Source of the DNA: Ignavibacteria bacterium
GTDB taxonomy: Bacteria; Bacteroidota; Ignavibacteria; Tepidaquicellales; OLB5
Direction of reading: 5' to 3'
DNA: 48,265 nucleotides
Assembly (NCBI GenBank): GCA_019912545.1
Contig: JAIOIK010000094.1
Coordinates: forward strand, 1 to 48,265
Below the pieces are notes generated by a model that made no database searches, was not told where the DNA came from, and saw only the letters and a list, made by a program, of their open reading frames with translations. Below, piece after piece: positions 18,014 through 39,974 of the stretch. A program made the position numbers and the translations under genes. Positions within the stretch are counted from its first letter, which is position 1. Every line of letters begins with the position of its first letter.

Positions 18014-18424
18014 TTATTTGAGTAGATTATGAATTTCGTGTGAAAACATTACATATCCCATTGCAAAAAACATAACTACACCTATTACAATAGAATACCT
18101 GTAAAGCGATTTATGGTACCTTGCGCCATCCGCCCAATCAACAAGCACTATTCTAATACCATTTAAAGAGTGAAACAAAACAAATGCAAACAAAAACCAC
18201 TCCATAGCCATAAAAAACGGAGTTGTATAATGAGACATAAACTCGTTAAATGCTTCTCTTCCCTGTGACAACGGTGAAAGGGAATAAATATGCATGAAAA
18301 GGTAACCTATTAATGCAATTCCGGTTATGCGGTGTAAAATCCACGCCCAACTGCCGGAATCTTTCCGGTAATTAAGGTTTGTTTTTACCCAGCTTTTCTG
18401 GTCAAATTTTTTGAATTCTGACAT
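18014..18424 (-). CDS. sdhC: Succinate dehydrogenase cytochrome b subunit SdhC
   Basis: A 136-aa membrane anchor of complex II with three TM segments. I place the start at the ATG at 18424 (MSEFKKFDQKSW); a longer frame to 18463 would overlap the promoter. GSWAWILHRITGIALIGYLFMHIYSLS is the SdhC signature, with candidate heme ligands. LFHSLNGIRIVLVDWADGARYHKSL is the second. The same blocks occur in order in SdhD, so the two subunits look like ancient duplicates. The predicted promoter ends only 8 bp before the ATG. Confidence 0.87.
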   Translation of the reverse strand: MSEFKKFDQKSWVKTNLNYRKDSGSWAWILHRITGIALIGYLFMHIYSLSPLSQGREAFNEFMSHYTTPFFMAMEWFLFAFVLFHSLNGIRIVLVDWADGARYHKSLYRYSIVIGVVMFFAMGYVMFSHEIHNLLK

Positions 18425-18432
18425 TTCAATTA

Positions 18433-18463
18433 CAAAAGTAGTTAAAAATGTAAGAAAATGCAA
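18433..18463 (-). promoter_or_regulatory. Predicted sdhC promoter, probably leaderless
   Basis: Read on the minus strand: TTG (18463-18461), 20-nt spacer, TACTTTTG (18440-18433), an exact match to TTG-N20-TAnnTTTG. The ATG starts 8 bp further on, leaving a leader of only a few nucleotides and no room for a ribosome binding site. Confidence 0.6.
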
Positions 18464-18523
18464 TATCTATAAAAAAATATTTGTTTTTGATAATTTTTTA
18501 AGGTTTAGGGAAATTCACTGAAT

Positions 18524-19393
18524 TTATGAGTATTTTAAGAACCTTCTTATTGAAATTACGCTGCCAAGTGTCCCAAGCATTGTACCAAATATAACTAGTA
18601 ATATCAGGAACTTAGTATCCATTATTGAAAAATTGAAATCATTATTTGTATATGTTGCATAAAAATAACCTAAAAATATCTGCAGAATTATCACTGCCAA
18701 AATGCTCCCCAAAAATCCCTGGAAAAATCCTTCCATAACAAATGGCGTGCGAATTGTCTCTTTTGTAGCCCCGATCAGCTTCAATATCTCGATAGTATCT
18801 TTCTTTGCAACTATCATCAAACGGATACTATTGCCAATTAAAAATATCTAAGAAAATGTAATTATCACAAGTAGGCTCAAATTAAGAAAAACCAGTGATT
18901 GCGAATTTCTTTCTATTATTTCAAGGTTCTTTTGAGCATAAACAATATCGTCAATTTCCCTGTTCTTTTGCAGTTCTGCTTTGATCTTCTCAATCCTGTC
19001 TATAGTCTTATACTCATCCCAAAGGCTTATTTTTAGTGATGCCGGAAGGGGATTGTAATCAAATACTTCAAGTATATCCTGCCCGAAATCTTCGGCAAAT
19101 ATCTTTGCTGCTTCTTCTTTTGAGACAAATGTGACGCTTTTTACGCCGCCTACAGTTTTAATATCAGCAATAAGTTTATTAATATCAGCGCCCGGAATGC
19201 TATCAGCTAAATAAGCGTCAATTTCAACTTTATCCCTTATAAGTTTAAGCAGCATAACAGAATTTATAGATATGGCCAAATAAATGCCAAGCAGCAGCAC
19301 AGCAAGCGCAATAACTACCGTTGAGCTGGCAACTGCGCTTTTGGCAGTCATCAGGTAACGCACAAACTCTTTAAAGTAGTATGATGGATTCAA
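18524..19393 (-). pseudogene. ftsX: ftsX copy interrupted by one amber codon
   Basis: This 870-bp copy of ftsX is colinear with the intact copy at 20987-21856. One in-frame TAG at 18850-18848 replaces a TCA serine codon (TFSSIF becomes TFS-stop-IF). It splits the protein into a 181-aa N-terminal part (TM1 plus the extracellular domain and TM2) and a C-terminal part that could restart at Met in RLMIVAKKD. Apart from the stop I see only six amino-acid differences from the intact copy, against about 90 nucleotide differences by hand count. It could be a very recent pseudogene, two separately translated fragments, or a sequencing or assembly artefact. Confidence 0.8.
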
Positions 19394-20220
19394 TTAACGA
19401 AATTTGCATATAAGCATGCATAGTATGCAATTAAAATTTTAATGGAGGAAAAATATTAATCAAAATCAAACTAATTTTACTTTTTTGATGTATATATTCC
19501 AAAAGATATTTTCCAGATAGCAAAATGAAATAACTACAATTGTTTACATACTATGAAATATAAGTATCAAACGCTTTCGAAGGAGAAAATCATAATGAGT
19601 TTTTTAAGAAAAGTCAATAACTTATTCAGTGGATGCAATTATGCAAATGATTGATTATATTGTGCTTTATCGTTATTAAGAATTTCAAATTTCTTGATTC
19701 TATTTATCACAGATTAATATGTATAAGAAAATAGAATGGTATTAGATGGATAGGTAATAGTAGTGAATTTTGTTGAAGTTTTAAGAAACAAAAATACTAA
19801 GCAAGTAAATTCAAACTATTGAAAGCAATTTAAATCCTGACCGTGAATGCAAGGAACAAAAAATGAAGATAGTGAAATTTAAGATCGTGATTTATCGTAT
19901 AAAGAATTTGTTATCACTTCATTAACTAACTGCTGGAGATTTGAGAGAACGATTTTAATGGAAGGTTTGAAGAAAATATATAAATGGCGGTTTAATTATA
20001 GTATGAATTAAAGAATTGATATAGTAAAACAATTCTTAGGAAACTTCTGTTTAATTTATCTGCAATTGCTGTTTGGATTTCAGAACAATTTTGTAAAGTG
20101 AGTTTTTAGTTTTTATTTAACAGTTATGGTTGAATTATATTCTTTTAGCTATAGGTAACTCATAGAATGTAAAAATCAAAACTTTAAATTTTTATTATAT
20201 ATATATTAGGAGGAGTAAAA
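19394..20220. other. AT-rich 827-bp stretch without a recognisable gene
   Basis: No long frame is open on either strand and I could not recognise decayed coding sequence. The one notable item is a 19-codon frame at 19595-19654 with a strong ribosome binding site (AAGGAG). The stretch ends in AGGAGGAG, the ribosome binding site of the DUF6790 gene. It lies between the two ftsX copies. Confidence 0.5.
19595..19654 (+). CDS. Possible 19-aa peptide or truncated gene start
   Basis: MSFLRKVNNLFSGCNYAND follows GAAGGAGAAAATCATA, a well-placed ribosome binding site. Such a site before so short a frame suggests either a small peptide or the surviving start of a gene lost to deletion. No similarity is recognised. 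Confidence 0.25.
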   Translation: MSFLRKVNNLFSGCNYAND

Positions 20221-20700
20221 ATGTTTGGCGCTATAAGCATTATTCTTGGTTTCATTGCAGGGGGTATTCATTTATTAGTAAGCAAAAAAGAACGCTCAAA
20301 GGGCAGAGTTATAAATATTTTTCTGCTATATGCACTGGTTTTCCAGGTGGGTTTTATAGGATTTTTTTTCGGTTTCGTCCCGCATGTGTTTTTTGCCGAT
20401 AGAACTGCCGAAAGTATTGGCTGGGTTACAGGAAGTCCTTTTCAGTTTGAAGTAGGTATTCATGACGGTGCATGGGGTATGCTAGGTTTTTTATGTATTT
20501 GGTTCAAAGGGGGGTTTCGCGTAGCTGCAGGACTTGGCTGGGCACTGTTTATGCTTGGTGCTGCCAGCGGACACATCTATCAAACAATTGCACACAGTAA
20601 TTTTGCTGAGTATAATTATTTTATGATATTCGTTGATGGATTCGTAGCAATAGAGCTTCCGCTTCTATTGTATCTTGATTATAAATGGAATGAAGCTTAG
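20221..20700 (+). CDS. DUF6790-like integral membrane protein
   Basis: A 159-aa protein with about five hydrophobic segments: FGAISIILGFIAGGIHLLV, IFLLYALVFQVGFIGFFFGF, GMLGFLCIWF, GLGWALFMLGAASGHIYQ and FVDGFVAIELPLLLYL. Between them lie conserved-looking polar motifs (SPFQFEVGIHDGAWG, GHIYQTIAHSNFAEYNY). This pattern fits the DUF6790 family as I remember it; function unknown. The ribosome binding site AGGAGGAG is strong. It is the only clear gene between two direct ftsX copies and is on the opposite strand to them. Confidence 0.65.
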   Translation: MFGAISIILGFIAGGIHLLVSKKERSKGRVINIFLLYALVFQVGFIGFFFGFVPHVFFADRTAESIGWVTGSPFQFEVGIHDGAWGMLGFLCIWFKGGFRVAAGLGWALFMLGAASGHIYQTIAHSNFAEYNYFMIFVDGFVAIELPLLLYLDYKWNEA

Positions 20701-20986
20701 GATGTCTTTTGCTCATTATCTTCGATTCTTTGCAACAACCCAAGTATGATAAGTTAGATTTTGAGGTAAATATTTAATATTGAATATAACCGTAGAGCAG
20801 GGGCATAATTTAGGCAGTAATACTGTTAAAGAAACAAATGAAAGGAAGAGAGTTTACGAGAAATATTCTTATGCTGTTCTTTATTTTTTGTTAGATATAT
20901 ATTATAGCAGCCCGCGAAGTCAGGGTCAAAATAATTTATGAGAGATACTCCTCAACAATAAAAGAAAATAGAATATTAACTATTTC

Positions 20987-21856
20987 TTATGAGTACTTTA
21001 AGAACCTTCTTATTGAAATTGCGCTTCCAAGTGTCCCAAGCATTGTACCGAATATAACCAGCAATATCAGGAACTTTGTATCCATTATCGAGAAATTAAA
21101 ATCATTATTGGTATAGGTAGCATAAAAATATCCAAGGAAAAGCTGCAAAATTATCACCGCAAGGATACTTCCCAAAAATCCCTGAAAAAAACCTTCCATT
21201 ACAAAAGGTGTGCGAATTGTTTCTTTTGTAGCCCCGATCAGCTTCAATATCTCGATAGTATCCTTCTTCGCAACTATCATCAAACGGATTGTATTGCCAA
21301 TTAAAAAAATTGAAGAAAACGTAATAATCACAAGCAGACTTAAATTCAGGAAAACCAGTGATTGTGAATTTCTTTCTATTATTTCAAGGTTTTTTTGGGC
21401 ATAAACAATATCATCAATTTCTCTGTTCTTTTGCAATTCTGCTTTGATCTTCTCAATTCTATCTATAGTCTTATATTCATCATAAAGACTTATTTTCAAA
21501 GAAGCGGGGAGAGGATTATAATCAAATACTTCAAGTATATCCTGCCCGAAATCTTCAGCAAATATTTTTGCTGCTTCTTCTTTAGAGACAAATGTAACAC
21601 TTTTTACGCCGCCAACAGTTTTAATATCAGCAATAAGTTTATTAATATCAGCTCCCGGAATGCTATCAGCTAAATATGCGTCAATTTCAACCTTATCTCT
21701 GATAAGCTTAAGCAGTTTAACAGAATTGATGGATATGGCCAAATAAATGCCAAGCAGCAGCACTGCAAGCGCAATAACGACAGTTGAGCTGGCAACTGCG
21801 CTTTTGGCAGTCATCAGGTAACGCATGAATTCCTTAAAGTAATATGATGGATTCAA
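20987..21856 (-). CDS. ftsX: Cell division protein FtsX (intact copy)
   Basis: A 289-aa integral membrane protein of the FtsX family, the permease-like partner of the ATPase FtsE. It couples divisome activity to peptidoglycan hydrolases. TM1 (about 18-40) is followed by the extracellular domain (about 50-165, with DAYLADSIPGADINKLI), then a C-terminal FtsX permease domain with three TM helices. IEILKLIGATKETIRTPFVMEGFFQGF is the family's conserved cytoplasmic loop. No ftsE is adjacent. It is a direct duplicate of the amber-interrupted copy 1.6 kb away. Confidence 0.92.
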   Translation of the reverse strand: MNPSYYFKEFMRYLMTAKSAVASSTVVIALAVLLLGIYLAISINSVKLLKLIRDKVEIDAYLADSIPGADINKLIADIKTVGGVKSVTFVSKEEAAKIFAEDFGQDILEVFDYNPLPASLKISLYDEYKTIDRIEKIKAELQKNREIDDIVYAQKNLEIIERNSQSLVFLNLSLLVIITFSSIFLIGNTIRLMIVAKKDTIEILKLIGATKETIRTPFVMEGFFQGFLGSILAVIILQLFLGYFYATYTNNDFNFSIMDTKFLILLVIFGTMLGTLGSAISIRRFLKYS

Positions 21857-22032
21857 TTAATCAATTAACAATTATCAGTAAGCAATTAACAATATTAATC
21901 GAAATACTCGTTTATTGTAAGTCATTTTCATCTTGGCCATTATTTTACAATTTTTATGAATTCTAACATTCAAACTTTATTGCTTTAAAACTATATTGCT
22001 TTATTACTTTTTTACTTTTGCCTTTTTACTTC

Positions 22033-24086: not shown

Positions 24087-25393
24087 AAGCCGCTTTGTTA
24101 ATACTTTCATTCATCATAACCATGACAGCTTACACCCAAGGCTGGGTATGGGTAGAGCAGGTATCAAACGTAAATACACGGCTTAATTCTGTTGAAATTT
24201 CAAATTGGATTGGGGCTGCATGGATTTGCGGCAATAATGGAGTTGTTCTCAGAACATCAAATAATGGCAGTAACTGGTTAAATATTGGTGTAAACGGAAT
24301 ACCGGCTGATGTAAACCTTCATTGCATATCCCAGGGTTATGATTATGGTGACGCAATTACAGCAGGAGTTAGGTCAGATACTGCAATTGTTTACAGAACA
24401 ACGAACTCCGGGACAAGTTGGCATGCAGTTTTGAAACAGTTTGGCGGGAGATTCAACGGTATAAATATAAAATCTCAGAATGGATTCATTTGCGGTAATC
24501 CAGTCGGAGGAAGATGGTCCATTTGGAAAACAACAAATCGTGGATTGAACTGGGATTCAACTGGGCTTTATGTGTCTCAGAACAACTCCGAAACCGGTTG
24601 GGCTAACTCATTCAAGTATTTTTACGGTAGTATTGCATTCGGTACGAATAATTCAAGAATGTATTATTCAATTAATGATGGATTGAACTGGTCTTATATG
24701 ACTACCTCAGCTTTGGGAGAGAATAACATTACGTCTCTGTCTTTTGTATCATATACGTATCAAATGTATGCTTATTTAGGTACTACTTCAAAAGTCTTGT
24801 TTACAACTAATTTTGGTGCAAACTGGAGCCAAACAACTCCGCTAAATTCAGGTAATGTAGTTGGACTTGCAAACAGGCCATTGCCTGTAGATCTGATAGG
24901 TCAGGAAGAGCTTTTCATTGTAAGGCCCGATAACAAGATCCAGTTTCAAAGTCCGGGGTCAACAGATTGGAGTGTAATTTACACAGCACCGTCCGGTAAT
25001 TATACTCACATAACTAACAATATGCCCTTTGAACACTACGCTGTTAGAGATAATGGAGGAATTTCATATTGTAATTGTATTATTATCGGTATTAGTCCGA
25101 TATCAAATTATATACCTGATGTTTTTTCGCTTTCACAGAATTATCCAAATCCATTCAATCCTACTACAGATATTAGGTTCGATATTCCTGTAGGGAACGG
25201 TCGTGACCGTTTGGTGAAATTAATAATTTATGATGCGCTAGGCAGAGAAGTGTCACAACTTGTGAATCAGCAACTTCAGCCCGGTACTTATAGTGTTGAT
25301 TGGGATGCATCAAATTTTCCGAGCGGAGTTTATTTTTACACTTTGACTACAGAAAATTATTCAGAATCAAAAAAAATGTTGATGGTAAAGTAA
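24083..25393 (+). CDS. Secreted YCF48-like repeat protein with type IX sorting domain
   Basis: A 436-aa exported protein. The ATG at 24083 follows GGAGG and opens a signal peptide (MKAALLILSFIITMTAYTQ). Residues about 25-345 contain repeated 'T-T-x-x-G-x-x-W' blades (for example TSNNGSNWLNIG, TTNSGTSWHAV, TTNRGLNWDSTG, TTNFGANWSQT), as in YCF48/BNR beta-propellers. The C-terminus SLSQNYPNPFNPTTDIRFDI and LPGTYSVDWDAS-like, SGVYFYTL-x-x-x-x-x-x-x-KKMLMVK is the Por secretion C-terminal sorting domain. It should cross the outer membrane by the type IX system. Its biological role is unknown. Confidence 0.9.
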   Translation: MKAALLILSFIITMTAYTQGWVWVEQVSNVNTRLNSVEISNWIGAAWICGNNGVVLRTSNNGSNWLNIGVNGIPADVNLHCISQGYDYGDAITAGVRSDTAIVYRTTNSGTSWHAVLKQFGGRFNGINIKSQNGFICGNPVGGRWSIWKTTNRGLNWDSTGLYVSQNNSETGWANSFKYFYGSIAFGTNNSRMYYSINDGLNWSYMTTSALGENNITSLSFVSYTYQMYAYLGTTSKVLFTTNFGANWSQTTPLNSGNVVGLANRPLPVDLIGQEELFIVRPDNKIQFQSPGSTDWSVIYTAPSGNYTHITNNMPFEHYAVRDNGGISYCNCIIIGISPISNYIPDVFSLSQNYPNPFNPTTDIRFDIPVGNGRDRLVKLIIYDALGREVSQLVNQQLQPGTYSVDWDASNFPSGVYFYTLTTENYSESKKMLMVK

Positions 25394-25411
25394 GATGTAT
25401 CTTTGCTGAGT

Positions 25412-37551: not shown

Positions 37552-37660
37552 CCATTTAAAATACAGTGATTCATTGATCAAACTCCTGTTCAATAGAAGA
37601 AAAAAATCAGCCACGAATTTCACTAATTTCACTTATTGCTGATCAGTGTACTAATAATTT

Positions 37661-37710
37661 GTGGCGTCAGATATTCATCTGACGAACGTCAGGTAAACAC
37701 CTGAGGTCAC
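37661..37710. repeat. Two-hairpin element, copy A
   Basis: CGTCAGAT-ATTC-ATCTGACG (37665-37684) followed by TCAGGT-AAAC-ACCTGA (37689-37704). An inverted copy lies at 39793-39840, on the other side of the acyl-CoA synthetase gene. Confidence 0.7.
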
Positions 37711-39730: not shown

Positions 39731-39974
39731 CCTTAATTTTCAGAAACCCTTTATTCCCACGGATGAATCCGTGGTATTAAAAGTTTTTGTTGTTACGTCA
39801 GGTATTTACCTGACGTGCGTCAGATGAATATCTGACGCCACTAAATGGATATGTCCCGCAAGTTTATATTGATACACTTACAATAAGGGCTTTAGCCTCC
39901 TAATTTCAGAAACCGTTGAAACGGTTTTGAAGAAAATGTTTTTTTAATTTTCCCACGGATGAATCCGTGGGCTA
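39731..39974. repeat. Cluster of palindromic repeats, including duplicated CCACGGAT/ATCCGTGG hairpins
   Basis: Two identical hairpins CCACGGAT-GA-ATCCGTGG lie at 39757-39774 and 39953-39970. Between them lie copy B of the two-hairpin element (39793-39840: ACGTCAGGTA-TT-TACCTGACGT, then GCGTCAGAT-GAAT-ATCTGACGC) and AACCGTT-GA-AACGGTT (39911-39926). A phrase TAATTTTCAGAAACC precedes two of the units. The region 39642-40062 has no gene. Confidence 0.75.

Follow-up and report, generated by a model that had tools for sequence, protein, structure and literature searches.

This study of a 48,265-nt stretch of Ignavibacteria DNA (the window, which is contig C27; the assembly has 3.66 Mb, with a completeness of 99.68% and a contamination of 0.51%) revealed two neighbouring ftsX copies whose divergence is almost entirely silent. 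Copy B is very probably the working ftsX, and copy A a redundant one that remained functional until very recently and was inactivated by an amber codon in its second membrane segment. A is best read as an ordinary young pseudogene, whose inactivation would date from roughly the final 3-4% of its branch. With regard to its origin, we favour arrival from a sister lineage, with an in-situ tandem duplication as the next candidate. The coordinates of the features are given in Table 1.

Table 1 The ftsX copies, their flanks and the DNA between them
Feature	Position	Strand	Evidence or remark
Native downstream ftsX flank (ftsX-sdhC interval), belongs to A	18464..18523		G009 flank alignment 94 vs shuffle maximum 36.5
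ftsX copy A	18524..19393	-	Full-length frame with one amber inside, start codon TTG; 97% protein identity to B, no indel
Amber TAG, residue 182, in second hydrophobic segment	18848..18850	-	TCN serine in all 13 relatives compared
Spacer part 1	19394..20220		24% GC, no recognisable gene
Accessory DUF6790 gene in spacer	20221..20700	+	PF20589 E=3.9e-39
Spacer part 2, downstream of B	20701..20986		Unlike native ftsX 3' flank; alignment score equal to shuffle median
ftsX copy B	20987..21856	-	Intact; FtsX_ECD and FtsX domains; zero family-foreign residues
Native upstream ftsX flank (symporter-ftsX interval), belongs to B	21857..22032		G009 flank alignment 162.5 vs shuffle maximum 57.5

The frames of A and B are of equal length (870 bp each, 0 indels) and differ at 90 nucleotides, distributed over codon positions 1, 2 and 3 as 7, 5 and 78, which leaves six amino-acid differences and one TAG between the proteins. 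An earlier note on this DNA, based on a hand count, had arrived at about 90 differences, six residues and one TAG; all of its counts and coordinates hold exactly. By the NG86 method, dS is 0.545 and dN 0.0152 (ratio 0.028). B matches the FtsX extracellular domain (PF18075, E=1.9e-18) and the FtsX-like permease C-terminal domain (PF02687, E=1.4e-16). In A, the TAG at residue 182, a serine in B and in all 13 relatives, cuts within the region matched by PF02687, and the first product of 181 aa would stop short of the cytoplasmic loop and of the two final membrane segments. A has presumably lost its function.

When the differences were polarised with other species as outgroups, B was found to keep the family residue at every polarisable position. 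A has changed at positions 11, 47, 125, 182 (the TAG), 189 and 279, while position 239 varies everywhere in the compared species. At otherwise invariant positions, B shows no unique departure and A shows five, namely four residues and the TAG. A Fisher test comparing A-B with B-G009 changes at invariant sites (p = 0.02) was dropped as circular because G009, the genome of the nearest species, belonged to the set defining invariance; with a leave-one-out procedure, G009 itself departs uniquely at six sites, its branch being about twice as long.

A dN/dS comparison had been suggested in the earlier note. Under a codon model, omega is 0.045 for A and 0.0016 for B, with a background of 0.030; the value for A exceeds that for B (p = 0.008) without being significantly above the background (p = 0.44). 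Relaxed selection on A is shown only relative to B. If the 6-8 extra nonsynonymous changes of A were all acquired at the neutral rate after its release from constraint, they would correspond to 3-4% of the A branch. That about six unconstrained changes should include one stop is no surprise, since there are roughly 17 nonsynonymous one-step changes for each stop. The silent-dominated divergence and the changes on A support the proposal that purifying selection acted for long on both lineages before a nonsense mutation arose recently in one.

The amber codon had been described as replacing TCA, at a cost of two base changes. This is correct relative to B, which has TCA at residue 182; relative to the nearest species (G009, locus L023) it is not, as the codon there is TCG (also present at locus L033), a single base from TAG. 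The amber can have been reached from TCG in a single step. One wrong base at 18849 would suffice to create it if the true codon were TCG, and both copies would then be intact. Such a consensus or assembly error is very unlikely, given the four further A-specific residues at otherwise invariant sites, the contamination of 0.51%, the absence from the assembly of a second copy of the neighbouring genes, and a longest exact tract common to A and B of just 43 nt. The suggestion of a sequencing or assembly error made in the earlier note gained no positive support.

Strain mixing was also considered and rejected: the window holds no other doubled DNA, the A/B pair being its sole long direct repeat, and the neighbouring 8 kb hold none except dispersed repeats. 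As separate observations on repeats in the window, a 53-nt inverted repeat (37658-37710 and 39792-39844), which is 91% complementary and contains many CGTCAG/CTGACG hairpin motifs, flanks the gene for a 608-aa AMP-binding enzyme, and at positions 25085-25400, where a gene encoding a C-terminal sorting (Por_Secre_tail) domain ends, the DNA is related to dozens of stretches elsewhere in the genome.

The frame of A is intact on either side of the TAG, which would be compatible with a copy that still functions, either by amber readthrough or through the assembly of two fragments of 181 aa and about 98 aa, the second restarting at a TTG or ATG near RLMIVAKK. This is highly improbable. UAG terminates three of the 38 presumed genes in the window, among them lepA, whose product of 599 residues compares with 598 or 599 in homologues, and RF1 is present in the genome. 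No tRNA with a CUA anticodon was found among 38 tRNA genes, an incomplete set that also lacks the expected Asn-GTT, Ala-TGC, Ile-GAT, Val-TAC and Arg-ACG. The RNA structure around the TAG is nothing unusual (z -0.33), the break falls inside the second hydrophobic segment, and no ribosome-binding site was seen by eye ahead of the restart. Amber suppression and a functional split protein, both raised in the earlier note, have no positive support. More improbable still is that A is maintained beside B as a split FtsX, with a separate N-terminal receptor half and a C-terminal half, or as a regulated readthrough form. The tRNA search also returned a second tRNA-Trp (CCA) with a low score of 42.9 bits (L089, G000:C118:1741-1812); the normal one lies on C167.

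The relatives, which carry public titles of Ignavibacteria or Chlorobi metagenome assemblies, show the usual state of the locus. Among 14 other genomes of the family, 13 carry a single full-length ftsX; the remaining one, 64% complete, has no match. The duplication, which the earlier note had proposed to look for in relatives, occurs in none of the 14, so that two copies are present only in the genome of the window. The gene order in relatives is symporter, ftsX, sdhC, sdhD, lepA, as against symporter, B, spacer, A, sdhC in the window. In 11 of the 13 fetched relatives sdhC follows ftsX; no sdhC match was found in the other two, L032 (a short locus) and L035 (a distant one). The symporter-ftsX interval is variable in relatives, from 84 to 1,843 bp; L027 and L030 hold confirmed IS200-type transposases there, and L024 has a frame that resembles them.

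The outer flanks of the pair are native, whereas the inner ones, downstream of B and upstream of A, are not; immediately upstream of A there is a faint similarity to native flanks, at a score reached in 3 of 500 shuffles. The spacer (19394-20986) is 1.6 kb of low-GC accessory DNA, found nowhere else in this genome and hardly at all in the genus. The DUF6790 gene that it holds is missing from the corresponding place in relatives and is most similar to homologues from other families of the class (60-61%, compared with 36-41% within the genus). A stretch beside A (19447-19495, about 55-105 bp upstream) is similar to DNA that lies upstream of a DUF1761 gene in G005, the sole match among 13 genomes. 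A degraded gene in the first part of the spacer was sought in four of the six translated frames, and no Pfam match was obtained.

The silent distance between A and B (0.545) is roughly 60% of that to G009 (0.83-1.02), from which the two copies are about equidistant. In trees, A, B and G009 may branch in more than one order: A joins G009 at 87/61 on a branch of 0.017, and A and B may also be sisters. The two copies need not have been under selection inside one genome: separate lineages that were recently joined fit at least as well, because of the foreign spacer and the lack of homogenisation between neighbouring copies. It is somewhat probable that A arrived from a sister lineage together with the DUF6790 gene and low-GC DNA, at a variable site beside ftsX. 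Most of the silent divergence would have built up in separate genomes; the sister-lineage copy and its accessory DNA would then have landed beside the resident B, where A, being redundant, would have gained the amber and lost its function. Arrival with accessory DNA would jointly explain why the divergence is silent only, why the spacer is foreign and why A was lost rapidly. No donor genome for A was found.

An in-situ tandem duplication after the split from G009, with later insertion of the accessory DNA and loss of one copy only now, is somewhat less probable. The lower dS between A and B than to G009, the weak trace of a native flank upstream of A and a tree that permits A and B as sisters are consistent with it. 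On this reading, selection would have maintained the two copies side by side over about 60% of the way back to the G009 split, and A would still be a young pseudogene. Against it is the lack of homogenisation between neighbours 1.6 kb apart. Furthermore, the 3' flank of B lacks any trace of the native one, and such a pair is confined to this genome.

Single-crossover (Campbell-type) integration of a molecule bearing ftsX and accessory DNA, which would make both present copies hybrids, could by a single event leave the outer flanks native and the inner ones foreign. Near position 545 the pattern of A/B differences with respect to G009 shifts (permutation p 0.02-0.03), which hints at mosaic ancestry. 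This change-point is, however, post hoc and weak, the ftsX element would be only about 2.5 kb long and without a replication or integration gene, and no plasmid or viral relative was found, so we regard such an integration as unlikely. A viral or plasmid source of ftsX was likewise discarded: there was no viral relative, and plasmid homologues have less than 60% identity, about 31% or less among the matches listed. Introgression of sdhC from the G009 lineage (dS of 0.25, against 0.82 for lepA) was rejected too, as a comparable sdhC:lepA ratio, about 0.4, is found in other species pairs. Low silent divergence of sdhC (18014-18463 in the window), about 0.3-0.5 of that of lepA, is seen across several close species pairs.

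It is recognised that prokaryotic pseudogenes can stem from acquired genes that failed (Liu et al. 2004, PMC522871). Like the young pseudogenes described there, A is homologous over its full length, is disabled by one stop, has an intact counterpart in the same genome and is associated with acquired DNA. In contrast to them, it is a core cell-division gene with a close within-genus twin, which results in a large silent and a tiny protein divergence. B resembles the membrane subunit of the FtsEX cell-division complex in having FtsX_ECD and FtsX-like permease domains, and it lies in the conserved symporter-ftsX-sdhCD-lepA order. It differs from that system in that no ftsE adjoins ftsX; the best FtsE-like gene sits on C36, just below the curated cut-off. 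To judge by their titles and abstracts, the few papers retrieved in a literature search report no similar ftsX case.

The ftsX pair yields no new mechanism, and a redundant copy that is starting to decay is an ordinary case. It nevertheless captures cleanly the moment at which a redundant core gene has just ceased to be needed, and it illustrates that neighbouring copies whose proteins hardly differ while their silent sites diverge widely can result from the meeting of two lineages, and not only from long coexistence.
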